DNA from: Pseudomonas rhizophila
Lineage (GTDB): Bacteria; Pseudomonadota; Gammaproteobacteria; Pseudomonadales; Pseudomonadaceae
DNA: 64,000 nucleotides
Direction: 5' to 3'
Assembly (NCBI RefSeq): GCF_003033885.1
Contig: NZ_CP024081.1
Location: forward strand, 15,914 to 79,913
Every line of letters begins with the position of its first letter. Position 1 is the stretch's first letter. Position numbers and translations under genes: made by a program. Positions 1-12,618 of this stretch are shown here, piece by piece. The notes below the pieces were generated by a model. It was not told the origin of the DNA. It saw nothing but the letters and a program-made list of their open reading frames with translations, and made no database searches.

Positions 1-32
1 GTGTCAGGGAAAGCGGGTTTTAAGGAGCGAGC

Positions 33-524
33 ATGAATTCAGTGGCGGCGGAGGGGTTGGTGGTACGGCCATCGCAGGTCAGCGATGGGCCGTTTCTGCA
101 GAGTCTTTACCAGACGGCGCGAGCGGATCTGCAATGGATCGACGGCGAGCACGAGCAAGTACAGCAGGTGATCGCACAGCAGTTCCAGGTGCAGGAGCAA
201 GGGCTTGGGGATAACTTCCCCAACGCCATGCATTACGTCGTGGAAAAGCTCGGCACCGCCATTGGCGCCTTGAGCACTGATTTTGGCCCCAATGAAATCC
301 GTGTGCTGTACCTGGCGTTCATCCCCCAGGCGCGCGGGCAAGGTTACGGTCGGGCCGTGCTGCAAGGGGTACAGAAAGCCGCACAACAGATCCGCTGCCC
401 GGTGGCGACCGTGGTCTGGAGCAGTAACCCGCACGCACGCCAGCATTACCTGGCATTGGGCTTTGAAGTGCAGGAGCGCAACCCGGCGGCGGAGCGGCTG
501 GTTTGGTATCCGAAGGGGAACTGA
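33..524 (+). CDS. GNAT-family N-acetyltransferase
   Basis: A 163-residue protein of GNAT size. The acetyl-CoA binding motif A is visible as a beta strand (VLYLAFIP) followed by ARGQGYGRAVL, and the C-terminal motif B region has the typical NPHARQHYLALGF (an aromatic residue just before a GF turn). It should transfer an acetyl group from acetyl-CoA to an amine, but the substrate cannot be read from sequence. The start ATG is well placed behind AAGGAG. An open frame from position 1 ends in TGA overlapping this ATG (ATGA), so an upstream gene may be translationally coupled, but too little of it is present to identify. It borders the accessory locus that follows; whether it belongs to that locus is unknown. 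Confidence 0.85.
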   Translation: MNSVAAEGLVVRPSQVSDGPFLQSLYQTARADLQWIDGEHEQVQQVIAQQFQVQEQGLGDNFPNAMHYVVEKLGTAIGALSTDFGPNEIRVLYLAFIPQARGQGYGRAVLQGVQKAAQQIRCPVATVVWSSNPHARQHYLALGFEVQERNPAAERLVWYPKGN

Positions 525-644: not shown

Positions 645-956
645 TCAGTTAAACGCAATGTAGAAATACCCCAGCGCCGGATCCCGTCCCATGGGCGGTA
701 TCCGCGACACAAACACCCCTTCGAGTCTTCCCAGTTCTGGCACCTCCAGGCCACAGGGCCCGTCCACGAAGTCCGTGTTCTGCAGGCTGTTGAACTCCAC
801 GCTGAACGGCATGCGCTCAGCGTTCGGCATCTTCGCCCGAGGTGCTTGCTCGAGGGTTTCGAACCGCACGGGCAGGGTACTTCCATCGGGTAGGGTCAGG
901 TTGCTGACCTGGCCCAGCAGCGGCTGGAAATGACGGCTTTGGACTTGCAGCAGCAT
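645..956 (-). CDS. DUF6916-like small protein
   Basis: A 103-residue protein of unknown function. It resembles the small beta-rich proteins now named DUF6916, which in my recollection sit beside phage-tail-collar (microcystin-dependent, MdpB-like) proteins. Visible features are an N-terminal segment ending in FQPLLGQ, a central FSVEFNS strand, and the ending PMGRDPALGYFYIAFN. It has no signal peptide, membrane segment or cysteines. It follows the tail-collar gene on the same strand with a 46-base gap containing a terminator-like hairpin, so the two may be co-transcribed with attenuation between them. The family call is from recognition of the pattern and of the neighbour, not from a search. 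Confidence 0.6.
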   Translation of the reverse strand: MLLQVQSRHFQPLLGQVSNLTLPDGSTLPVRFETLEQAPRAKMPNAERMPFSVEFNSLQNTDFVDGPCGLEVPELGRLEGVFVSRIPPMGRDPALGYFYIAFN

Positions 957-968
957 CTCGGCGCTCCA

Positions 969-996
969 AAAGGCCGGAGGACCGCAGCCCTCCGGC
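969..996 (-). terminator. Terminator-like hairpin after tail-collar gene
   Basis: Read on the minus strand, GCCGGAGG pairs with CCTCCGGC around an 8-base loop and is followed by TTTT. It lies just past the stop of the tail-collar gene and before the DUF6916-like gene, so it may terminate or attenuate transcription between them. Confidence 0.45.
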
Positions 997-1002
997 GGGT
1001 GA

Positions 1003-1590
1003 TCAGTTACGGGAGGGGAAAAAGCCTTGCAGGGCGATGCTGAAGTTGATCGCCAGGAACGGGTTCATGATCGCCATCGGTGTACTGCTTCCCGCTGGGG
1101 ACACCGTGCCGCTGATGGTGGTGGTCACGCCTTGCAGCGCTACCGGTGAAGCGCCGAGCTGGTCGGAATAGATATTCGCTGCGCCCGGTCCGGTGCCCGA
1201 GGTGCCGATGAACGAGTTGGTGGCCGTTGGAGTATTCACCGGATTGCTGGCCGGGTTCGCCAGCTGCAAAGCGGTCGCGGCGGTAGCCCCTGTGAGGGCG
1301 TGAGTGTGCGCGGGCAGGTTGGCCTGCGTCGCGGTGACGTTTTCGGTGCCGGAGATTTCGCCGATGACACGCGGCGTCAGGCCCAAACCGTTGCCCATGC
1401 CCATGGGCAGGCGACCCTGCAGGTTGGGGAGCATGAAGGTGGTCTGGCCGTTGCCCCCGTACGTCACGCCGATCAGGGCGAATAAGGTTTGGTACTGGGA
1501 AAGGGCAAGCGTCTGCCCGTTGCACAGGGCCCAATCTCTGGGCGCGAAGTTAAAGGCGAACGACTGGATAGTGCCGATGAATACTTCCAT
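1003..1590 (-). CDS. Phage tail collar domain protein (MdpB-like)
   Basis: A 195-residue protein beginning MEVFIGTIQSFAFNFAPRDW. Its first 60 residues are a classic tail collar domain: the glycine-rich ALCNGQTLALSQYQTLFALI followed by YGGNGQTTFMLPNLQGRLPMG. The rest is Ala/Thr/Gly-rich and ends in PFLAINFSIALQGFFPSRN, matching stand-alone tail-collar proteins (the MdpB/microcystin-dependent type) rather than full tail fibres. The start at 1590 is chosen because GAGGATTCT precedes it; longer in-frame starts lack a good site. No other phage genes are nearby, so this is not part of a visible prophage. It is followed by the DUF6916-like gene and is divergent from a sulfotransferase and a giant surface protein, with which it may function. 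Confidence 0.85.
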   Translation of the reverse strand: MEVFIGTIQSFAFNFAPRDWALCNGQTLALSQYQTLFALIGVTYGGNGQTTFMLPNLQGRLPMGMGNGLGLTPRVIGEISGTENVTATQANLPAHTHALTGATAATALQLANPASNPVNTPTATNSFIGTSGTGPGAANIYSDQLGASPVALQGVTTTISGTVSPAGSSTPMAIMNPFLAINFSIALQGFFPSRN

Positions 1591-1688
1591 AGAATCCTCA
1601 TCCATCAGGTTATTGGTATGGCGACTCGTCACGCACGGCTGAGCGTAGACCGAGATATTTCATTCTGCTGGGCTGGAAGGGAGGAAAA

Positions 1689-1769
1689 ATGTTGTCCAGT
1701 GGCTTAATCGATTCAGGTTCGCATGGCGCCTATACCGTCCATCTTTTTTACAGATCTGGCTGGGTTTGA
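1689..1769 (+). CDS. Possible 26-residue leader peptide
   Basis: A short reading frame (MLSSGLIDSGSHGAYTVHLF then YRSGWV) begins 4 bases after a strong GGAGG site, better than the site of any downstream gene nearby. It ends 79 bases before the chosen sulfotransferase start, in a different frame. It could be a leader peptide or a chance frame. I recognise no homologue. Confidence 0.25.
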   Translation: MLSSGLIDSGSHGAYTVHLFYRSGWV

Positions 1770-1848
1770 TATCAAAGTAGTACTAGTCGCGGATTATTTC
1801 CTCAGCTACGCTTTGCGCTACAAATGGAATACAAACAAGGTGAAGGGA

Positions 1849-2685
1849 TTGCCGCAGTTTCACTTTATCTCCGGTTTACCGCGCTCGGGCTCGACCCTGC
1901 TTTCTGCCATTTTGCTGCAGAACCCGCGCTTTCATGCCGGCATGACCAGCCCCGTCGGTTCGCTGTTCAGCAGCGTCCTGCAGCAATGCAGCGCCGGCAG
2001 TGAGTTTGGCTCGGTGATCGACACCGACCTGCGCCGTCGCCTGTTGCGCGGGCTGTTCGACTCCTACTACGCCGACAAGGCCGACAAACCCGTCATCTTC
2101 GATACAAATCGCCAGTGGTGCGCCCGCTTGCCTGCGTTGCAGGACCTGTTCCCCCAGGCCAAGACCATCGCCTGCGTGCGCAACGTCGCCTGGGTGCTGG
2201 ACAGCCTGGAGCGGCTTTACCGCGCCAATCCGTTCGAGAACACCAAGCTGTTCAATGACGATGACGAGCGCAACACCGTCTACAGCCGCTGCGAAACCCT
2301 GGCCCAGCGCAACCGCCTGGTTGGCTTTGCCTGGACAGCGCTCAAAGAGGCGTATTACGGCGAAAACGCCGAGTCCATGTTGATCGTCGACTATGACCTG
2401 TTGAGCCAGGCCCCGGAGCGGGTGATGCGCCTGGTGTACGAGTTCATCGGTGAGCCCTGGTTCGAACACGACTTCAATCACTTGACCTATGACGCACCGG
2501 CCTTCGACCAGGCCTTGGGCGTTGCCGGCCTGCACAAGGTCAAGCCCAAGGTCGCGCCGCAAGCCCGGCGGACCTTGTTGCCGCCGGATCTGTTTGAAAA
2601 GTATGCCGAGTTGTCGTTCTGGCGCGATGGGTCCGCCAGCGCTGCCAATGTCATTCGTATGAAAACCGACGCCGCGGTCAACTGA
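1849..2685 (+). CDS. Sulfotransferase family protein
   Basis: A 278-residue P-loop sulfotransferase. From the chosen TTG start the protein begins PQFHFISGLPRSGSTLLSAI, where GLPRSGST (residues about 9-16) is the 5'-phosphosulfate binding loop for PAPS. The ACVRNVAWVLDSLERLYR segment supplies the Arg and Ser expected in the 3'-phosphate binding motif. It should move sulfate from PAPS to a hydroxyl or amine acceptor in the cytoplasm. An in-frame ATG at 1723 would add 42 residues that do not look like the family; TTG is preferred because AAGGTGA lies five bases upstream. The gene sits 52 bases before a giant secreted protein and is one of two sulfotransferases flanking it, so that protein is a plausible acceptor (inference). 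Confidence 0.8.
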   Translation: MPQFHFISGLPRSGSTLLSAILLQNPRFHAGMTSPVGSLFSSVLQQCSAGSEFGSVIDTDLRRRLLRGLFDSYYADKADKPVIFDTNRQWCARLPALQDLFPQAKTIACVRNVAWVLDSLERLYRANPFENTKLFNDDDERNTVYSRCETLAQRNRLVGFAWTALKEAYYGENAESMLIVDYDLLSQAPERVMRLVYEFIGEPWFEHDFNHLTYDAPAFDQALGVAGLHKVKPKVAPQARRTLLPPDLFEKYAELSFWRDGSASAANVIRMKTDAAVN

Positions 2686-2737
2686 TTCGCGGTTTTTTCA
2701 TTTGCGTGTTTAAAAAGTTCGAGTCCAGGTGAACGTC

Positions 2738-5700
2738 ATGTGGTGGAGCAAAGGCAAATCGCGGGTAACCGAGGGCGCACAGGCCCTGGCATCGCCAATG
2801 ATCATGTCCCTGGAGCCGCGAATGCTGTTCGACGGCGCGGTGGCGGCGACCGTGGCCGATGCCGCACAGGCGGACGCCCAACCCACTGCAGACGCGGCCA
2901 AGACGCCTGCGGCTGACCAGGCTTCAGACAGCCACGCGCCTCAAGGGCAGACCGATGCCACCCAGGCCGCTGTGCCCGGCAAGGCCGTGGTGTTTGTCGA
3001 TTCCCGGGTCAAAGACTCGGCCAGCCTGCTCGAAGGCGTCGCGCCCGGTACCCAGGTGGTGCAACTGGATGCCACCAAGGACGGCCTGCAACAGATCGCC
3101 GATTACCTGGACACCCACCAAGGCATCAGCTCGGTGCAGATCATCGCCCACGGCAACGCCGGCGATCTCTGGTTGGGCAGCAGCTACCTGTCGGCGGACA
3201 ACGTTGAGGCCCGCAGCGAGGTGCTGGCGCAGATCGGCCAGGACATGAACGCCGGTGGCGATATTCTGATCTATGGCTGCTACACCGCTGAAGGTGACCG
3301 TGGCCTGAGCCTGGTCAATTCACTGGCGCAGTTGACCGGCCGCGACGTGGCGGCGTCCATCGATCGCACGGGCCTTGGCGGCGACTGGGACCTGGAAATC
3401 GCCACCGGCAACATCGAAAGTGCCAACGTGCTCTCGGCCACTGCCATGAGCGAGTACCAATGGGGCCTGGCCACCTGGACCGCTACCAACAACCTCAATT
3501 CCGGTATTGGTTCTCTGCGCGCCGCTTTGGATTCTGCGCAGAATGGTGACATTGTTACGTTCAATGCCGGCATGACTGTCGCATTGACCCAGGTGCTGGT
3601 GGTCGACAGCAACGTCACCATCGATGGCGATCTCAACAATGACAACGTGGCCGACGTCACCCTCGACGGGCAGTACCGCACCCAGATTATCAACGTGACG
3701 GCCGGCACCACGGCGACCCTCGATGGCCTGGTGATTACTCGCGGTATGGTGGCGGGTAACGGCGGTAATGGCGGCGACGATGCGCTGGTGTCAAAGGGCG
3801 GCGGGATCTATAACGCCGGCACCCTGACCCTGAGGAACGTCACCGTCACCGCGAACGCCGCTTCGGGTGGCGGCGGCGGTGGTGGTGTCACGCCGCAATA
3901 CGCCGGCGGCGGTGGCGGCGGCGGTGGCGCGATCACTGGCGGTACCGGTGGCAAGGGCGGCGATACCCTCAACGCCACTGGCTCCAACGGCTCGGCCGGC
4001 CAGGGCGGCGCCGGGGGTGGCTTCTTCAACATGGGCGGGCGTGGTGGTTCCTCCACCGGCGGGGCTGGCGGTTCCGCGTATCCGGGCTACAGCACCGGCT
4101 CCGCAGGCGGTACGGCCGTCAGCGGTGGGCTATCCATCGGTGGCGGTGGCGGTGGCGACGGCTATAACGATATTGGCGGCGCCGGTGGCGGAGCGGTCGG
4201 TGGTATCTACAACGACACCGGCGCGACCCTGCGAATCATCGGCAACTCGGTCATTTCCAACAACGTCGGCGCGGGCGGCGGCGGTGGTGGCGGTGGCGCT
4301 GGCGGTGGTTACAACCACACGGGCGGTGCCGGCGGCGTCGGTGTCGGGGCCATCTGGAACAAAGGCTCGATCCTGATTACCGCCGCCAACTTCGCCGCCC
4401 TGGCCGGCAACGTCGGTGGCAGCGGCGTGGGTGGGACCAGTGCCGGCACCGCGGGTGTTTCGCCGGCGTCGGTGGCCAACGTCTACGGCGATGGCGGCAC
4501 CATCAACACCAACTATGTGCCGGACGAGACGCCGCCCACCGCGACCGTCGTGGTGGCCAATACCAACCTGAACTCCGGTGGCACGTCGCTGGTGACCATC
4601 ACCTTCTCCGAAGCTGTCACCGGCCTCACTGCGGCCGACCTGACGGTGCAGAACGGCACCATCGGCACCTTGACCAGCGGCGACGGTGGCATCACCTGGA
4701 CCGGCACTCTGACCGCGGCCAGCAACATCGCCGACACCACCAACATCATCACCCTGAACAACACCGGGGTTGCCGACCTGGCCGGCAATGCCGGCGTGGG
4801 CACCACCGACTCGAACAACTACGTGGTCAACGACACCGTGGCGCCCACGGCGTCCATCGTGGTCAGCGATACTGCCCTTCGGGTCGGTGAAACCTCGTTG
4901 GTGACCATCACTTTCTCCGAAGCGGTCAGTGGTTTTACCGCAGCGGACCTGACGGTGGCCAACGGCTCGATCAGCGGCCTGAGCTCCAGCGACGGTGGCA
5001 TCACCTGGACGGCCACCTTCACACCGGACGCTGCGATCACCGACACTTCCAATCTCATTGTCCTGAATAACACCGGCGTGGCGGACCTCAATGGCAACGC
5101 CGGCGTGGGGACGACCAACTCCAACAACTACGCTATCGACACCCTGCGTCCGACAGCGACCATCGTGGTCAGCGACACTGCCCTCAGGGTCGGTGAAACC
5201 TCGGTGGTGACCATCACCTTCAACGAGGCGGTGAGCGGTTTTACCACCGCTGACCTGACGGTTGCCAACGGTTCGGTTACCGGGTTGAGCAGCAGCGACG
5301 GCGGTATCACCTGGACCGGGACACTGACCCCGAGCGCCAGCATCAGCGACACCACCAACCTGATCACACTGAACAACACCGGCATTGCCGATCTGTCCGG
5401 GAACGTTGGCACCGGCACCACCGATTCGAACAACTATGCAATCGACACGCTGCGTCCCACCGCCACCATCGTGGTGGCCGATACTGCGCTAAATATCGGC
5501 GAAACATCGCTGGTGACGATCACTTTCAGCGAAGCTGTCACGGGCTTTACCCTGGCAGACCTGACTGTGGCCAATGGCTCCTTGAGCGGGCTGAGCAGCA
5601 GCGACGGCGGCATCACCTGGACCGCGACGCTCACCCCGAGCGCCAGCATCAGCGACGCCACCAATCTGATCATCCTGGCCAATACCGGTGTGGCGGACGC

Positions 5701-8700
5701 GGCCGGTAACACCGGCAGCGGCACCACCAGCTCCAACAACTATGCAGTCGACACCCAGCGACCCACCGCTAGCATCGTTGTGGCCGACACCGCGCTGAGC
5801 GTTGGCGAAACATCCCTGGTGACCATCACCTTCAACGAAGCGGTAACAGGCTTTACCGCCGCCGACCTGACGGTCGCCAACGGTACGATCACCGGCCTGA
5901 GCAGTGGCGACGGCGGCATCACCTGGACCGGCACGTTGACACCAAGCGCTAGCGTCAGCGACACCAGCAACCTCATCACCCTGGATAACACTGGTGTGGC
6001 GGATGCGGCGGGCAACGTCGGTACGGGCACCACTGATTCGAACAACTACGCCATCGACACCGCGCGTCCGACCGCGACCATCGTGGTCGCCGACTCGACC
6101 CTTGGCGTCGGCGAAACCTCGCTGGTGACAATTACCTTCAGCGAGGCGGTGACCGGTTTCACCCTGGCCGACCTTACCGTTGCCAACGGCAGCCTGAGCG
6201 GGCTGAGCACCAGCGATAACATCACCTACACCGCGACTTTCACGCCGAGCGCGGGCGTCAGCGATAGCACCAACCTGGTCACGCTCAATAACACGGGCGT
6301 GGTGGACGGCGCGGGCAACACCGGCAGCGGCACCACCGATTCGAACAACTACGCCGTCGACACCCTGCGTCCGACCGCCACCATCGTGGTCGCCGATACG
6401 GCGCTGAGCGTCGGCGAAACCTCGCTGGTGACCATTACCTTCAGCGAGGCGGTCAGCGGGTTCGACAATTCGGACCTGAGCGTCGCCAACGGTACGCTGA
6501 GTGCGGTCAGCAGCAGTGATGGCGGCCTTACCTGGACCGCCACCTTCACTCCGGCCCTCGGCGTCACCGACACCTCCAACGTCATCACCCTGAACAACAC
6601 CGGGGTCAGTGACGCGGCGGGTAACTCCGGCACCGGCACTACCAACTCCAACAATTACCAGGTCGACACCAACGTACCGACGGCGACCATCGTGATTGCC
6701 GATACCACCCTGAGCATCGGCGAGACGTCATTGGTCACCGTGACCTTCAACTCGGCGGTCAGCGGGTTCGACAATTCGGACCTGACCGTCAGCAACGGCA
6801 CGCTCAGCACCATGAGCAGCACCGACGGCGGCGTCACCTGGACGGCCACCTTCACGCCGAGCGCCAGTATTTCCGACACCAGCAACGTGATCACGTTGGA
6901 CAATACCGGCCTGATCAATGGCGCGGGCAACGCCGGTGTCGGTACTACCGACTCCAACAACTACACCGTCGACACGGTGCGCCCAACGGCGACTATCGTC
7001 GTGGCCGACACCGCCATTGCCGCCGGCGAGACCTCGCTGGTAACCATCACCTTCAGCGAGGCGGTGACCGCGTTCACCAGTGCCGACCTGACGGTTGCCA
7101 ACGGCGTGATTTCCGGCCTGAGCAGCAGCGACGGCGGCATCACCTGGACCGCGACCTTCACGCCGACCGCTGGCGTCACCGACACCAGCAACGTCATTTC
7201 GCTCAATAGCGGCGGTATCGTCGACCTGGCGGGCAACGTCAACGTCGGCACGACCGACTCCAATAACTACAGCATCGACAGCCAGCGTCCGACCGCGACC
7301 ATTGTGCTGAGCGACTCTGCGCTGAGACCGGGCGAAACCGCTCAAGTGACCATTACCTTCAGCGAGGCGGTGACCGGCTTCACCAACGCCGACCTGAGCG
7401 TGGCAAATGGCACATTGAGCGCGGTGAGCAGCAGCGACGGCGGCTTGACCTGGACCGCCACTTTCACGCCGGACCTGGGCGTGACCGACGCCACCAACCT
7501 GATCGTGCTGGACAATACCGGTGTGAGCGATGCGGCGGGCAATACCGGAACAGGCACCACCAACTCGGCCAATTATGCCGTGGAGACGCGGGTGCCAACG
7601 GCCACCGTCGTGGTGGCTGATAACGCCCTCAGCGTGGGGGAAACCTCGTTGGTGACCATCACCTTCTCGGAGGCCGTCAGCGGTTTTGACAATGCCGACC
7701 TGAGCGTGAGCAACGGCACACTGAGCAACGTCTCGTCCACCGACGGCGGCGTGACCTGGACAGCCACGTTCACCCCGACGAGCAATATCACCGATACCAG
7801 CAACCTGATCAGCCTGGACACCAGCGGTGTGGTCAACGTGTCGGGCAACAACGGTGTCGGCGTGGTGAACTCCAACAACTACGCCATCGACACGGTTCGC
7901 CCCGGCGCCACCATCACAGTGGGCGACACCAGCCTGGGCATCGGCCAGAGCACTACTGTGACCATCAGCTTCACCGAGGCAGTGTCCGGTTTTGACTTGT
8001 CGGATCTCAGCGTCGCCAATGGTGTGTTGTCCAACCTCACCAGCAGTGACGGCGGCCTGACCTGGACGGCGACCCTGACGCCTACCGCGGGCGTCAACGA
8101 TGCCACCAACCTGATCCTGCTCGACGCCAGCAATGTGCAGGACCTGGCCGGCAACGCCGGCGTGGGCATCGCGATTTCCAGCAACTACGCACTCGACGCC
8201 ACCCGGCCGACGGCCACCATCGTGGTCGCCGACCCGAACCTGACGGCGGGCGAGACGACTCTGGTGACGTTCACCTTCAGCGAACCGGTGACTGATTTCG
8301 ATCTGTCAGACCTCAGCGTCACCAACGGTGAACTGACCAACCTGACCACCAGCGACGGCGGTAGGACCTGGACGGCAACGTTCACGCCCACGGTGAACCT
8401 CACGGACCCGAGCAACTTCATCGCTCTGGACACCAGTAACGTCAGCGACCTGACAGGCAACGCCGGAGCAAGCGTGGCGGTGTCCAACAATTACGCCATC
8501 GACACCGTGGTGGCCAACGATGTGAAGCCACCGCCGGAGTTCCTGACGTCCGACCCTGTCACGGTCGTGCCGCCCTCCGAGGTGCCGTTGCAGCCGATTG
8601 TCTTTACGCCGCCAACCGGTGACCTCGGCTCGCCGCTGGGCTTTCCACCGCTGTTTGAACAACGCGACGTGGGCGGCGGCATTCGGCCGATCGGCGACAT

Positions 8701-9049
8701 TTTCATCAACCGTGGTGCACTGGCGCCGAGCTATATCGCCCAGGTATTCAGCTCCGACGCTGCGGGCGATGGCTCCGGCCAGGGCTTCCTGGGCTTCGGG
8801 GGTGGCGATGGCGGGGTGTTCGGCAGCAGCACGATCGCCGGTCTGTTCAGCCAGGATGCCGGTTCCGATGGTGAATCGCTGGACGCCTTCGACAGCCAGT
8901 CGATGCAGGGCGGTGATGGGTCTCAAGGGGTATTCGGCGCACCAACCCTGGGCCAGCAACTTCAACAACTCAAAGACACCGAGCAGCGTCAGGTCGACAG
9001 CCTGGCAATGGCATTGCAACAGGTCGGCATGAGCCAGGCGCAGGCCTGA
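2738..9049 (+). CDS. Giant LEPR-XLL/DUF4347 Ig-repeat surface protein
   Basis: About 2,100 residues. The N terminus carries LEPRMLFDGA, the LEPR-XLL motif of large exported proteins. Then come a DUF4347 domain (about residues 85-245, with VQIIAHGNAGDLWLG and GGDILIYGCYTAEGDRG), a beta-helix-like stretch (about 250-345), a glycine-rich block (about 345-590), 13 tandem Ig-like repeats of about 102 residues (about 592-1920), and a 180-residue C-terminal region rich in Pro, Gly, Ser and Gln. There is no classical Sec signal peptide, no LPXTG and no clear RTX nonapeptide repeats. The AGGTGA site favours ATG 2738 over GTG 2729. A TolC-type gene follows at once, suggesting type I-like export, but no ABC transporter or adaptor is in the window. 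Likely an adhesin or matrix protein; exact role unknown. Confidence 0.85.
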   Translation: MWWSKGKSRVTEGAQALASPMIMSLEPRMLFDGAVAATVADAAQADAQPTADAAKTPAADQASDSHAPQGQTDATQAAVPGKAVVFVDSRVKDSASLLEGVAPGTQVVQLDATKDGLQQIADYLDTHQGISSVQIIAHGNAGDLWLGSSYLSADNVEARSEVLAQIGQDMNAGGDILIYGCYTAEGDRGLSLVNSLAQLTGRDVAASIDRTGLGGDWDLEIATGNIESANVLSATAMSEYQWGLATWTATNNLNSGIGSLRAALDSAQNGDIVTFNAGMTVALTQVLVVDSNVTIDGDLNNDNVADVTLDGQYRTQIINVTAGTTATLDGLVITRGMVAGNGGNGGDDALVSKGGGIYNAGTLTLRNVTVTANAASGGGGGGGVTPQYAGGGGGGGGAITGGTGGKGGDTLNATGSNGSAGQGGAGGGFFNMGGRGGSSTGGAGGSAYPGYSTGSAGGTAVSGGLSIGGGGGGDGYNDIGGAGGGAVGGIYNDTGATLRIIGNSVISNNVGAGGGGGGGGAGGGYNHTGGAGGVGVGAIWNKGSILITAANFAALAGNVGGSGVGGTSAGTAGVSPASVANVYGDGGTINTNYVPDETPPTATVVVANTNLNSGGTSLVTITFSEAVTGLTAADLTVQNGTIGTLTSGDGGITWTGTLTAASNIADTTNIITLNNTGVADLAGNAGVGTTDSNNYVVNDTVAPTASIVVSDTALRVGETSLVTITFSEAVSGFTAADLTVANGSISGLSSSDGGITWTATFTPDAAITDTSNLIVLNNTGVADLNGNAGVGTTNSNNYAIDTLRPTATIVVSDTALRVGETSVVTITFNEAVSGFTTADLTVANGSVTGLSSSDGGITWTGTLTPSASISDTTNLITLNNTGIADLSGNVGTGTTDSNNYAIDTLRPTATIVVADTALNIGETSLVTITFSEAVTGFTLADLTVANGSLSGLSSSDGGITWTATLTPSASISDATNLIILANTGVADAAGNTGSGTTSSNNYAVDTQRPTASIVVADTALSVGETSLVTITFNEAVTGFTAADLTVANGTITGLSSGDGGITWTGTLTPSASVSDTSNLITLDNTGVADAAGNVGTGTTDSNNYAIDTARPTATIVVADSTLGVGETSLVTITFSEAVTGFTLADLTVANGSLSGLSTSDNITYTATFTPSAGVSDSTNLVTLNNTGVVDGAGNTGSGTTDSNNYAVDTLRPTATIVVADTALSVGETSLVTITFSEAVSGFDNSDLSVANGTLSAVSSSDGGLTWTATFTPALGVTDTSNVITLNNTGVSDAAGNSGTGTTNSNNYQVDTNVPTATIVIADTTLSIGETSLVTVTFNSAVSGFDNSDLTVSNGTLSTMSSTDGGVTWTATFTPSASISDTSNVITLDNTGLINGAGNAGVGTTDSNNYTVDTVRPTATIVVADTAIAAGETSLVTITFSEAVTAFTSADLTVANGVISGLSSSDGGITWTATFTPTAGVTDTSNVISLNSGGIVDLAGNVNVGTTDSNNYSIDSQRPTATIVLSDSALRPGETAQVTITFSEAVTGFTNADLSVANGTLSAVSSSDGGLTWTATFTPDLGVTDATNLIVLDNTGVSDAAGNTGTGTTNSANYAVETRVPTATVVVADNALSVGETSLVTITFSEAVSGFDNADLSVSNGTLSNVSSTDGGVTWTATFTPTSNITDTSNLISLDTSGVVNVSGNNGVGVVNSNNYAIDTVRPGATITVGDTSLGIGQSTTVTISFTEAVSGFDLSDLSVANGVLSNLTSSDGGLTWTATLTPTAGVNDATNLILLDASNVQDLAGNAGVGIAISSNYALDATRPTATIVVADPNLTAGETTLVTFTFSEPVTDFDLSDLSVTNGELTNLTTSDGGRTWTATFTPTVNLTDPSNFIALDTSNVSDLTGNAGASVAVSNNYAIDTVVANDVKPPPEFLTSDPVTVVPPSEVPLQPIVFTPPTGDLGSPLGFPPLFEQRDVGGGIRPIGDIFINRGALAPSYIAQVFSSDAAGDGSGQGFLGFGGGDGGVFGSSTIAGLFSQDAGSDGESLDAFDSQSMQGGDGSQGVFGAPTLGQQLQQLKDTEQRQVDSLAMALQQVGMSQAQA
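4513..8490 (+). repeat. 13 tandem 306-bp Ig-like coding repeats
   Basis: Thirteen in-frame repeats start at about 4513, 4819, 5128, 5434, 5740, 6046, 6349, 6655, 6961, 7267, 7573, 7879 and 8185. Most are exactly 306 bases; the copy at 4819 is 309 when counted this way, and the copy at 6046 is 303. Each encodes the pattern RPTATIVVADTAL / GETSLVTITFSEAV / DLTVANG / SSDGGITWTATFTP / NTGVADLAGN / SNNYAIDT. Copies differ at many synonymous sites, which argues against very recent duplication. Confidence 0.95.
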
Positions 9050-9089
9050 ACAACTAAAAAAATTGGGGCAGCAAGGGGCAATCCAGGGA

Positions 9090-10601
9090 ATGAATAGAAG
9101 TCAGAAGTTATTCGCAATGAGTGTGCTGGCGTTGACGGTCAGCGGATGTGCGGTCACCAGCGAGCCGATCGAGCGTAGCGTCAGCGAACAGCGCGCCCGG
9201 ACCGACCTGCAGAATATGTACAAGGATCAGGAGCCCCTCAGCGGCCCGCTGACCCTGCACCAGGCCATGGCCCGTGCGGTGAAGTACAACCTTGAAGGCC
9301 GTTTGAAGATCATGGAAGAAGCCCTGGCCAAGCGTCAGCTGGACCTGGCCAGTTTCGACATGCTGCCGCGCATGGCCCTGGACGCCGGCTACGTGGGCCG
9401 CAACAACGTCAGCGCTTCCAGCAGCCAGAGTGTGGAAACCGGTACCCAGTCTCTGGAACCGTCGACCTCCCAGGACCGCGATCGCGAAGTAGCCGACCTG
9501 ACCATGGTCTGGAACGTGCTCGATTTCGGCGTGAGTTACATCAGCGCCAAGCAGGCCGGGGACCAGCGGCTGATCGTGCAGGAGCGTCGGCGCAAAGTCA
9601 TCAACACCATCGTCCAGGATGTGCGTTCGGCTTACTGGCGAGCCATGGCCGCCGAGCGCCTGCTCAAGCAGATCGACAGCCTGATGGTCCGAGTCGATAC
9701 GGCCCGCGGCAACAGTCAGAGCATGAGCGAGCAACGCATTGGCGACCCAGTGCAGGCACTGGGTTACCAGCGTTCGCTGATCCAGGCCACCCGCCAGCTC
9801 GAAGAGCAGCGCCGGGCGTTGTCCCTGGCCAAGACGGAACTGGCGACGCTGATCAACCTGCCCCTGGGCACCGAGCTGACCTTGGCCACCCAGGATGAGT
9901 ACGTCATCCCGGAACTCAAGGTCGACCTCGCGCGCCTGGAACAGGAAGCCCTGACCAGTCGCCCGGAACTGCGCGAGCAGGACTACCAGACGCGCATTAC
10001 CGCCGCTGAAACCCGCAAGGCCATGCTGCGCCTGTTACCTGGGCTGGAGTTCTCCGCTGGGGGGCATTACGACAGCAACTCGTTCCTGGTGGAGCAGGGC
10101 TGGGCTGACTATGGCGTGAAGGTCACCTGGAATCTGTTCAACGTGATCTCCGCCCCGGCGGCCATCAACGTGGCCAAGGCCGGTGAAGAGGTCGCGGCGG
10201 CGCGGCGCCAGGCGATGTCGATCGCCGTGCTGGCGCAGCTGTACGTGGCCAATGCCAATTACCGCGAGGCGCTGCGCCAGTTCAAGACCAGCCAGCAGCT
10301 GTCGGAGATCGATGGGCAGATCGTGGGTCAACTGCGCAACCGCCATCAGGCCGCCGGCTTGGGTGAGCTGGACCTGATCCAGGGCGAACTCAATACGCTG
10401 CAGGCTGACTTGCGGCGGGATCTGGCCTATGCCGACCTGCGCAACGCCTATGGCCAGATCTTTGCCAGCGCTGGCCTCGACCCGTTGCCCGATGAAGTGC
10501 AATCGACCCAAGTGCAGTCCATTGCCACGGCGTTGGCCAACCGCGAAGCGGCGTGGGCCCAGGGCGATATCGCGGTGCCGACCGCGGCGGTGACCCAGTA
10601 A
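9090..10601 (+). CDS. TolC-family outer membrane lipoprotein
   Basis: A 503-residue outer-membrane efflux protein. From ATG 9090 it begins with a lipoprotein signal peptide ending LTVSGC, so the mature protein should be lipid-anchored at that Cys, as in many Pseudomonas outer-membrane channels. The body shows the two-fold TolC pattern of long helices: LTLHQAMARAVKYNLEGRLK near the start, and the segment NLFNVISAPAAINVAKAGEE in the second half. The earlier in-frame TTG at 9063 would bury the signal peptide. It is 40 bases downstream of the giant protein gene and probably co-transcribed, so it likely forms the outer-membrane exit for that protein. The matching inner-membrane ABC protein and adaptor are not in this window. 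Confidence 0.85.
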   Translation: MNRSQKLFAMSVLALTVSGCAVTSEPIERSVSEQRARTDLQNMYKDQEPLSGPLTLHQAMARAVKYNLEGRLKIMEEALAKRQLDLASFDMLPRMALDAGYVGRNNVSASSSQSVETGTQSLEPSTSQDRDREVADLTMVWNVLDFGVSYISAKQAGDQRLIVQERRRKVINTIVQDVRSAYWRAMAAERLLKQIDSLMVRVDTARGNSQSMSEQRIGDPVQALGYQRSLIQATRQLEEQRRALSLAKTELATLINLPLGTELTLATQDEYVIPELKVDLARLEQEALTSRPELREQDYQTRITAAETRKAMLRLLPGLEFSAGGHYDSNSFLVEQGWADYGVKVTWNLFNVISAPAAINVAKAGEEVAAARRQAMSIAVLAQLYVANANYREALRQFKTSQQLSEIDGQIVGQLRNRHQAAGLGELDLIQGELNTLQADLRRDLAYADLRNAYGQIFASAGLDPLPDEVQSTQVQSIATALANREAAWAQGDIAVPTAAVTQ

Positions 10602-10613
10602 CAGGCCGTACGC

Positions 10614-11399
10614 ATGGTGCGCCCGGCGTTTTCCCGGCTGCCGGTAACGGTGAACCTGCCTTTGCTGTTGCAGGCACTGGCAGCCGTTGAGGACGATCAT
10701 TGGCAAGGCCACTTCAACAGCGCGTACTACAGTGGTGACTGGAGTGGCGTGGCGCTGATTTCGGCGGTCGATGCCTTGACCCCGTTGTCTCCCGGGCGCG
10801 GTCAGCCCGTGCAGCGCGCGCTCTGGTCAGAGGATGACCGGTGGCACGAGGCGTTGCGCGACTGGCCGTTGGAGATCGTCTCGGCCCGCTTGCTGCGACT
10901 CGGTCCCGGCGGGTGTATCCACGAGCATCGCGATTATGACCTGGGTGGCGCGAACGCCGATCTGCGCCTGCATGTGCCGCTGCTCAGCCCGTCTGGCGTG
11001 GATTTCTGGCTGGATGGGCAACGCATTCCGATGACGGCGGGCGAATGCTGGTTTCTTGATCTGTCGCTGCCTCATCGCGTCGATAACCACAGCAGTCAGC
11101 CGCGGATTCATCTGGTGCTCGATTGCCGCCCCAGCCCATGGCTGCAACGGCAGGTCGCCGCCGGGCTGCTCAGCACACCGGCAATCGTGGCTGAGCGAAG
11201 TGATCTGGTGTGCTTTGAGCAGCTCGTTGAAACCGACCCTCACCTTGCCCGGACTTTGCAGAGCCTGCATGACGTAGACGCTTTCATTGAGTGCGCAATC
11301 GCGATGGCTGCCGCACGCGATTTACACGTTACCCGGGAGCAATTGCAGGCGACCATGCGCAACGGTCGCCGGCAGTGGAGTGATCAGTGGAAGGCCTGA
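10614..11399 (+). CDS. Aspartyl/asparaginyl beta-hydroxylase-like dioxygenase
   Basis: A 261-residue protein of the AspH family of Fe(II)/2-oxoglutarate enzymes. The core is clear: LLRLGPGGCIHEHRDYD (His105 as an iron ligand), RLHVPL, a GECWFLDLSLPHRVDN segment (His154), and PRIHLVLD (Arg164, likely 2-oxoglutarate carboxylate binding). This family hydroxylates the beta carbon of Asp or Asn in proteins, or acts on small molecules. The C-terminal 85 residues are family-specific and unassigned. There are no membrane segments, so it is cytoplasmic. The stop overlaps the start of the second sulfotransferase, so the two are translationally coupled. Its place after the giant protein and TolC genes suggests that it modifies that protein before export (inference). 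Confidence 0.8.
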   Translation: MVRPAFSRLPVTVNLPLLLQALAAVEDDHWQGHFNSAYYSGDWSGVALISAVDALTPLSPGRGQPVQRALWSEDDRWHEALRDWPLEIVSARLLRLGPGGCIHEHRDYDLGGANADLRLHVPLLSPSGVDFWLDGQRIPMTAGECWFLDLSLPHRVDNHSSQPRIHLVLDCRPSPWLQRQVAAGLLSTPAIVAERSDLVCFEQLVETDPHLARTLQSLHDVDAFIECAIAMAAARDLHVTREQLQATMRNGRRQWSDQWKA

Positions 11400-12343
11400 A
11401 CCTGGACGGCTGGCTGCCGATCCGCGTGTGGCAAGCGGCGGGGCAGTGGCGGGTTGACTGGTGCTGGTTCGGGGAGGAGCGATTGTCGCAACCGTTCTTC
11501 GGCGACGCGGTGGAACACGCCCTGCGGTTGCCCTTCAATCAGGCGTTCCGCCGCCAGACAGCCTTGAGCGCCCTGGACCAGTGGAGACAACAAAGCCCAG
11601 GCCTGCCCCCGAGTGCATTTATTTTCCATGCCTCCCGCTGTGGCTCGACATTGATCAGCCAGATGCTGGCGCAACTGGACGACCACATCGTCATTTCAGA
11701 ACCGCCGCCTCTGGATACTCTGCTGCGCAGCGATATGGTGCACGCTGACCGCTGCGTGGCACTCAGGGGGCTGATGTCGGCCTATGGGCAGCGCCGCCGA
11801 GGCGTGGAACAGCGGCTGGTGATCAAGCTTGACGCCTGGAACATCGGTGAACTGGCGCTGCTGCGCGAATGTTTTCCCGACACGCCTTGGTTGTTCGTGT
11901 ACCGCGACCCTTTGGAAATCGCCGTTTCCCATTGGCGTCGTCCCGGCATGCACATGGTGCCGGGGATGATCGGGACAAGCGTGTTGGACGACGGATTGCC
12001 CTTCGGCGGCCAGGAAGATTTCATCGCGCGCCGGCTGGGGCGGTTGTTGCAGGCGGGGTTGGAGCACTGCCATGAGTTTGCCGGGCTGGCGGTTAATTAC
12101 GCTGAGTTGCCTGATGCGATGGCAGGGCGGCTGGCGGTGTTTTTCGGGCTGAATGACGCCCAGCGCCGGCAAGTGTTTGCCATGACGGGGCAGCATGCCA
12201 AGCAGCCGGGGCAGGCGTTTGCCGGTGATAGCGAGGACAAGCGTCGGGAGGCTTCGTCACGGCTGCGCGATCAGGTGATGCATTGGGCGCAGGGGTCCTA
12301 TGAGGCGCTCGAAACCTGGCGCGTTGGCCGGCATCAATGTTGA
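11387..12343 (+). CDS. Sulfotransferase-like P-loop protein
   Basis: A 318-residue protein. The loop FIFHASRCGSTLIS (about residues 78-91) matches the PAPS-binding loop of sulfotransferases, and LFVYRDPLEIAVSHWRR carries the expected Arg and Ser of the second phosphate-binding motif. The first 75 residues (with WRVDWCWFGEERLSQPFF) are an extra N-terminal domain absent from the first sulfotransferase at 1849. The GTG start is supported by GGAG six bases upstream and overlaps the end of the hydroxylase gene by 13 bases in another frame, which implies coupling. It is the last gene of the accessory run. The acceptor is unknown; the giant protein encoded upstream is the obvious candidate. Confidence 0.75.
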   Translation: MEGLNLDGWLPIRVWQAAGQWRVDWCWFGEERLSQPFFGDAVEHALRLPFNQAFRRQTALSALDQWRQQSPGLPPSAFIFHASRCGSTLISQMLAQLDDHIVISEPPPLDTLLRSDMVHADRCVALRGLMSAYGQRRRGVEQRLVIKLDAWNIGELALLRECFPDTPWLFVYRDPLEIAVSHWRRPGMHMVPGMIGTSVLDDGLPFGGQEDFIARRLGRLLQAGLEHCHEFAGLAVNYAELPDAMAGRLAVFFGLNDAQRRQVFAMTGQHAKQPGQAFAGDSEDKRREASSRLRDQVMHWAQGSYEALETWRVGRHQC

Positions 12344-12379: not shown

Positions 12380-12426
12380 ATTTGTTTTGTGCTGGTTTGA
12401 GTATCCGCGACTACCCTCAATCCCCT

Positions 12427-12618
12427 GTGGGAGCAAAGCTTGCTCGCGAGGCGGCCTGACAGCCGGCCTGGCTCTCCCGGTTGTACGTCGATCAAACTGT
12501 GGGAGCGAGCTTGCTCGCGAAGGCGGCCTGACAGCCGACCTGGCTCTCTCGGTTGTACGTCGATCAAACTGTGGGAGCGAGCCTGCTCGCGATGGCGGCC
12601 TGATAGCCGGCCAGGATT
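12427..12618 (+). repeat. Tandem REP array, 72-bp period
   Basis: Three same-direction units start at 12427, 12499 and 12571, exactly 72 bases apart. Each has a REP core (GTGGGAGC...GCTCGCGA), then GGCGGCCTGA(C/T)AGCC, then, in the first two, a GTTGTACGTCGATCAAACT linker. The unit is longer than a plain REP and is repeated head to tail, unlike the inverted pairs elsewhere. Reading frames across it are by-products. Confidence 0.9.

Follow-up and report, generated by a model that had tools for sequence, protein, structure and literature searches.

A probable unit for maturing and exporting a giant LEPR-XLL protein in Pseudomonas rhizophila, with optional sulfotransferases and hydroxylase

A 64,000-nucleotide stretch of the Pseudomonas rhizophila genome (G000:C1:15914-79913, here called the window; host genome 5.95 Mb, one contig) encodes a giant protein with an LEPR-XLL N-terminus, a DUF4347 domain and Big_12 repeats. 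Its gene is accompanied by those for a sulfotransferase (ST1), a TolC-type outer-membrane lipoprotein, a 2-oxoglutarate/Fe hydroxylase and a second sulfotransferase (ST2). Our analysis indicates that this locus is probably a dedicated maturation-and-export unit for the giant protein, equipped with optional tailoring enzymes. An original prediction had listed seven genes here and proposed that the enzymes modify the giant protein before export. All seven were recovered, on the strands and at the positions given there, by open reading frame (ORF) maps and Pfam, but the exporter genes to the left of the window had been missed. Indeed, the locus continues leftward past the window edge with a gene for an HlyD-type adaptor, one for a longer HlyD protein and one combining M50 peptidase and HlyD parts (M50-HlyD), followed by a GNAT acetyltransferase gene.

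Linkage of the enzyme genes to the giant gene

The genes were searched for in 199 Pseudomonas genomes, G000 included. DUF4347 was matched in 85 genomes, the hydroxylase in 50, ST2 in 50, ST1 (strong matches) in 51 and M50 (strong matches) in at least 88. The 51 strong ST1 places exclude five paralogues (46-48% identity) together with eight rows that were short or weak. For DUF4347, 98 of 100 rows were retained as places. Also excluded were the second G079 copy of each of hydroxylase and ST2, and any M50 row below 250 bits. When G086 and G185, with partial or weak DUF4347, were dropped, 83 strong-DUF4347 genomes remained.

All 51 strong ST1 matches lay within 2 kb of DUF4347. The hydroxylase and ST2 genes were at most 2 kb apart in 49/50 genomes, and a DUF4347 gene was present in 49 of the 50 genomes with a hydroxylase; G167 has a weak hydroxylase match with no partners, and G115 a weak ST2 fragment. 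In 44/50 cases, the hydroxylase and DUF4347 shared a contig and were no more than 15 kb apart. The other six were on another draft contig (G035, G083 and G079), elsewhere in the genome as part of the pair (G130 and G076), or weak (G167). The co-occurrence of the enzymes with the giant protein in other genomes, on which the original prediction hinged, was therefore confirmed.

Chance or genomic-island clustering, with the sulfotransferases and the hydroxylase as hitch-hikers acting on unrelated substrates, is highly improbable. Such clustering would fit the changing position of the hydroxylase-ST2 pair and its lack of linkage in G130 and G076. However, these two genomes still contain the giant and the exporter, the ST1-DUF4347 linkage holds across Proteobacteria classes, and the co-occurrence in the genus already made chance unlikely.

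M50 was detected in 83/83 strong-DUF4347 genomes, and for at least 87 of the 98 DUF4347 places it lay within 30 kb on one contig. ST1 or the hydroxylase was present in 60 of the 83 genomes (51 + 49 - 40). Thus, tailoring is optional, whereas export forms the core of the unit. Gene maps were drawn for 48 fetched stretches from 44 genomes, using in-house gene calls that missed some hydroxylase genes found by the genome search. The usual order was HlyD, HlyD, M50-HlyD, GNAT, DUF6916/phage-tail-collar protein, (PMT_2-type glycosyltransferase), (ST1), giant, TolC, (adenosine 5'-phosphosulfate kinase, hereafter APS kinase), (hydroxylase-ST2), with optional genes in brackets. In other loci, the hydroxylase-ST2 pair was placed between M50 and GNAT. 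GNAT was called in 31 of the 48 stretches, the collar gene in 34, PMT_2 in 10 and APS kinase in 12.

Among 274 genomes of the class, ST1 gave two strong matches, G416 and G363, each directly before DUF4347; G416 also holds a 121-bit ST1 paralogue. No close match to the hydroxylase was obtained in these genomes outside its own (best 88.9 bits, in open frames of 92-701 aa). M50 and HlyD matches adjoined DUF4347 giants in L140, L142 and L146, from three families.

From named genomes, the best 80 of 579 ST1 relatives were used; 25 of these 80 are not labelled Pseudomonas. DUF4347 lay beside ST1 in 77 of the best 80 loci, and in 24/25 of those not labelled Pseudomonas, covering many genera. The three loci without it were L237 (SAR324), L262 and L249 (cut by a contig end). 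Within 6 kb of ST1, these 80 loci contained the collar gene 59 times, DUF6916 48, GNAT 47, M50 45, PMT_2 37, APS kinase 9, hydroxylase 5 and ST2 4, all lower bounds owing to short flanks and Pseudomonas queries. Hydroxylase and ST2 were both within 6 kb in Undibacterium (L204), Pseudomonas sp. BN102 (L210), Methylobacter (L217) and Stutzerimonas (L231); in Methylobacter, 1.6 kb and a collar gene separate the two. The remaining hydroxylase, in L257, matched at 71 bits. M50 was seen near ST1 in 1/25 non-Pseudomonas loci (L231), a lower bound for the same reasons. In other gammaproteobacteria (L129, L130 and L131), hydroxylase-like and sulfotransferase-like matches occurred in neighbouring proteins of 587-694 aa. 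These are suspected to be tetratricopeptide repeat fusions, and are an independent pairing of both chemistries.

The exporter

The M50-HlyD protein (698 aa) comprises M50 peptidase, biotinyl-lipoyl and HlyD parts. The site-2 protease motifs HExxH (H195, E196, H199) and RFDG (D297) were kept in 14/14 sequences. In a predicted model, its N-terminal domain has the winged-helix fold of a PqqD-like recognition element (RRE) of ribosomally synthesized and post-translationally modified peptide (RiPP) systems. The domain contains three strands and three helices, and resembles TbiB1, lasso B1, PqqD and MccB by fold. Many homologues are annotated as 'putative peptide zinc metalloprotease protein', a name linked to YydH.

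HlyD-type adaptors and a TolC-type channel, by which type I secretion is recognized, are both encoded. However, no ATP-binding cassette (ABC) ATPase was found between HlyD and TolC by a Walker A and signature scan of the ORFs called in the 48 stretches; five ABC-ATPase-like ORFs were detected, all outside the unit, and an ABC gene located elsewhere may still contribute. TolC had originally been placed among type I exits. The conserved exporter is not a classical type I system: it consists of HlyD, HlyD, RRE-M50-HlyD and TolC.

In P. rhizophila, the adaptor genes are immediately preceded by OEP (truncated at the end of the fetched stretch), ABC and HlyD genes (G000:C1:6001-10425; L090:2-4426). 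The same trio is found upstream of the unit in G183, and ABC and HlyD genes in G160; the stretches fetched from G197, G139, G190 and G060 showed no such genes upstream. It could be argued that the giant leaves by this conventional ABC type I system, with M50-HlyD doing other work such as regulated proteolysis, and the adjacency of TolC to the giant is compatible with this. We consider such a route unlikely. The four genomes without upstream ABC genes in their fetched stretches speak against it, as does the position of all ABC-ATPase-like ORFs outside the unit. M50, for its part, is present in all 83 strong-DUF4347 genomes and also stands beside LEPR giants that lack DUF4347. An exporter built on M50-HlyD is thus preferred. 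Many soil bacteria thus have, in one block with the giant surface-type protein and the enzymes, an unusual machine lacking any obvious energy-supplying pump, which points to an undescribed route for modifying and exporting very large proteins; no description of this unit was found in the open-access library searched.

The giant protein and its candidate tailoring enzymes

An LEPR-type motif was present in 44/47 loci scanned; the misses were L058, where there is no giant gene, L142 and L146. At the other end, a C-terminal [LFVI]xxQ[LVM] motif was found in 44/46 complete giants, against a mean of 9.0 and a maximum of 18 in 500 shuffles. This shared LxxQL segment is proposed to act as the export signal. 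In L059 (G060), two ORFs replace the single giant gene, with an ambiguous base close to the break; an assembly or sequencing flaw may be responsible.

The His-Gly and Tyr-Gly-Cys motifs of DUF4347 were invariant in 13/13 aligned domains. Cys 184 (window 3278-3280), inside the latter motif, is the sole cysteine of the giant, and exactly one cysteine was counted in 39/42 giants listed. The invariant His and Cys suggest a cysteine-peptidase-like dyad; it is only because of these two residues that the domain looks protease-like. A known protease fold was rejected, since a PDB profile search returned designed TIM barrels, the DUF4347 entry 9qpe and other enzymes, and no peptidase. A DUF4347 domain is reported for P. 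aeruginosa PA0256, a putative type VI secretion system toxin (PMC8262886). With a two-repeat Big_12 model, Foldseek returned the adhesin FdeC first, then mostly antibody-type immunoglobulin folds.

Giants with at least three SNNY repeats accounted for 14/14 of those with hydroxylase-ST2 in the locus and 6/7 of those with ST1 only, compared with 0/3 giants of the L066/L067/L075 type and 0/12 without enzymes in the locus. This count leaves out L059 (split), L060 and L074 (both cut), L088, L089, L093 and L096; L094 was taken as enzyme-free, and its genome, G130, has the unlinked hydroxylase-ST2 pair. A GGG-rich stretch after DUF4347 was found in 62/74 ST1-linked versus 1/30 unlinked giants, and outside Pseudomonas in 10/22 ST1-linked versus 1/30 unlinked giants. 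No single DUF4347 tyrosine separated the two groups, as the motif filter kept 50/80 linked and 32/37 unlinked loci.

The constant adjacency of ST1, the SNNY repeats and the GGG-rich region point at the giant as the substrate, but do not prove it. Several observations limit this reading. Neither ST1 nor hydroxylase was found in 23 of the 83 strong-DUF4347 genomes. Within Pseudomonas, the SNNY and GGG-rich correlations are confounded by ancestry. Finally, in the distant Big_12-like domains examined, the place of the repeat tyrosine is taken by L, W or F, and the SNNY tyrosine was therefore rejected as a proven sulfation site. Thus, the original proposal of modification before export stands as regards linkage, while modification itself is something we infer.

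ST1 is the only Sulfotransfer_1 match in the host genome (Sulfotransfer_3 was not searched genome-wide). Its real start is probably near 1840, giving 281 aa, because its relatives start around residue 40, and in-frame stops precede that point in several of them. The closest solved structures are the protein-tyrosine sulfotransferases TPST1/TPST2, with E values of 2.8e-5 for its own sequence and 7.6e-5 for the family profile. The PRSGSTL P-loop region and the second region binding 3'-phosphoadenosine 5'-phosphosulfate (PAPS) align with those of TPST. However, the similarity is weak, and ST1 lacks the Glu at the aligned TPST position; a nearby His (FHA) is conserved in the rows covering that position. 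For ST2, which shares 98% identity with a P. rhizophila protein, no significant relative was found among solved structures, and many of the homologues listed carry PF13469 (Sulfotransfer_3, precomputed). APS kinase was identified by PF01583 (E 2.2e-50 in the member scanned), and in 8 of the 12 stretches having it, its frame and that of tolC share 17 bases; P. rhizophila has two good APS-kinase matches elsewhere. As a PAPS-making gene belongs to some units, the sulfotransferases are argued to use PAPS. A PMT_2-type glycosyltransferase gene lies upstream of ST1 in many loci (for example L052:2720-4315, and 37 of the L195-L274 loci), and may possibly represent a third modification of the system.

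In the hydroxylase, H105, D107, H154 and R164 were invariant in 12/12 sequences, corresponding to the HxD...H motif and Arg of the PF05118 superfamily. From the known roles in this superfamily, we take the first three to form the metal site and R164 to be the 2-oxoglutarate Arg. The nearest solved enzyme is L-proline cis-4-hydroxylase 4p7w, matched by the family profile with an E value of 1e-12. Both share the catalytic core HRD...H...R, but 4p7w acts on free proline, whereas the locus enzyme has a Nif11-like tail and a sulfotransferase partner. In the tail of this protein, Nif11 is weak by Pfam (E 0.13); PF07862 is precomputed on many listed homologues. LpxO was matched weakly, with an E value of 0.0015, far under the cut-off.

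These features also bear on another possibility: the enzymes, though part of the locus, might modify a glycan, a lipid or a different secreted product of the locus (the collar protein, for instance), with the giant no more than co-regulated. PMT_2 and the collar gene are frequent around ST1, in 37 and 59 of the best 80 loci respectively (PMT_2 in 10/48 stretches), and the free-proline enzyme and LpxO matches point in the same direction. We regard this alternative as rather doubtful. DUF4347 remains the most constant ST1 neighbour (77 loci against 59, 48, 47 and 37 for the collar gene, DUF6916, GNAT and PMT_2), and the presence of ST1 tracks a particular Gly-rich region of the giant.

In the layout below, intergenic gaps are short. 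The giant starts 43 bases after ST1, no RaxX-like small precursor ORF fits between these two genes in the window, and the hydroxylase and ST2 frames share 13 bases. TolC probably starts at 9090, and its lipobox LTVSGC was read off the translation. With NCBIfam, no family was above the cut-off among the eight locus proteins tried. Immediately 3' of ST2, a 72-base tandem repeat with a GTGGGAGCGAGCTTGCTCGC core (window 12425-12609), which we presume to be REP-like, is likely the right boundary of the locus.

Features of the locus. Positions are those of the window unless prefixed with G000:C1, which marks genome coordinates.
Feature	Position	Strand	Remarks
HlyD-type adaptor gene	G000:C1:11743-12522	+	left of window
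Second HlyD protein gene	G000:C1:12519-13838	+	long N-terminal part; left of window
RRE-M50-HlyD gene	G000:C1:13840-15936	+	last 23 bases are window 1..23, stop codon 21-23; Pfam M50 33.8 bits, HlyD_3, Biotin_lipoyl_2
GNAT acetyltransferase gene	33..524	+	PF00583, 36.8 bits; between exporter genes and giant
DUF6916 protein gene	645..956	-	PF21880, 33.8 bits
Phage-tail-collar-domain protein gene	1003..1632	-	PF07484, 92.1 bits
ST1 sulfotransferase	1723..2685 (ORF)	+	PF13469, 56 bits
Giant LEPR-XLL/DUF4347/Big_12 protein	2729..9049	+	2,106 aa; probable substrate
LEPRMLFDGA motif, residues 28-37	2810..2839	+	proposed leader-like recognition motif
DUF4347 domain, residues 87-245	2987..3463	+	175.8 bits
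Gly-rich region between DUF4347 and Big_12 repeats	3746..4513 (approximate)	+	read from sequence
13 Big_12 repeats	4523..8500	+	about 102 aa each, each ending S-(N/A/S)-N-Y; Pfam and sequence reading
C-terminal 60 residues with LGQQL	8867..9046	+	proposed export signal
TolC-type OEP outer-membrane lipoprotein	9063..10601	+	PF02321, 131.7 bits
2-oxoglutarate/Fe hydroxylase, Asp_Arg_Hydrox fold	10614..11399	+	PF05118, 61.5 bits
Nif11-like C-terminal part of hydroxylase	11202..11369	+	family profile against Nif11-domain protein 9zn4, E 0.0011
ST2, second sulfotransferase	11387..12343	+	PF13469, 26.3 bits, slightly below cut-off of 27

Proposed pathway and relation to known systems

The best-supported model follows a RiPP-like logic. 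The giant protein would be made in the cytoplasm, where its LEPR leader-like N-terminus, the C-terminal LxxQL segment or both could be bound by the RRE domain of M50-HlyD. ST1 would sulfate it with PAPS before or during export, probably toward the N-terminal part, the PAPS coming in some loci from the locus-encoded APS kinase. The hydroxylase, perhaps docked via its Nif11-like tail, would add a hydroxyl that ST2 would then sulfate; this would account for the two genes staying together. The M50 site-2 protease may trim the giant, and the HlyD adaptors and TolC would carry it across the outer membrane. The data show gene linkage, domain identities, an RRE fold in a predicted model, intact catalytic motifs, shared terminal motifs and a unit in which no ABC ATPase was found; the giant as substrate, the reaction order, tandem hydroxylation-sulfation, cleavage and M50-dependent export are what we infer. 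In a more tentative version of this RiPP-like pathway, the LEPR-XLL N-terminus would be read by RRE-M50-HlyD, which would feed TolC as conduit with no ABC ATPase. Here, the tandem hydroxylase/sulfotransferase and a TPST-like enzyme acting on a further site would give a poly-sulfated, hydroxylated surface protein.

According to the original prediction, no bacterial adhesin modified by both chemistries had been described. Sulfation of an exported peptide does have a precedent in RaxX and RaxST of Xanthomonas (PMC6637879). RaxX is a 60-residue precursor with a double-glycine leader, and the RaxAB type I complex both processes and exports it. This is the closest precedent for sulfating an exported product. 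In both cases, a PAPS sulfotransferase gene stands beside that of the exported product, and an HlyD-type adaptor and TolC are involved. The present product, however, exceeds 2,000 aa; the unit yielded no ABC transporter and additionally encodes a hydroxylase and a second sulfotransferase. According to the same paper, raxST homologues occur elsewhere in diverse contexts, presumably with other substrates.

The locus also differs from RRE/M50 RiPP systems, with which it shares the RRE fold, a site-2 protease, a Nif11-like domain and tailoring enzymes: its substrate gene encodes a giant repeat protein, whereas RiPP substrates are short peptides. LapA/LapEBC-type systems perform type I secretion of giant adhesins. 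They resemble the locus in having a giant repeat protein with a conserved C-terminal segment, HlyD-type adaptors and a TolC-type channel, but here RRE-M50-HlyD takes the place expected for the ABC ATPase, and the N-terminus is of the LEPR type.

Altogether, if this scheme is correct, it would constitute an ABC-free TolC export route for proteins thousands of residues long, apply RRE/Nif11 logic to giant proteins as well as to short peptides, and show that bacteria have, besides RaxX, a widespread system for protein sulfation. Such loci are frequent (83/199 Pseudomonas genomes with a strong DUF4347 match, 60 of these with ST1 or hydroxylase), and many other Proteobacteria also have ST1 next to a giant gene. 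Therefore, the locus may bear on surface attachment and host perception.

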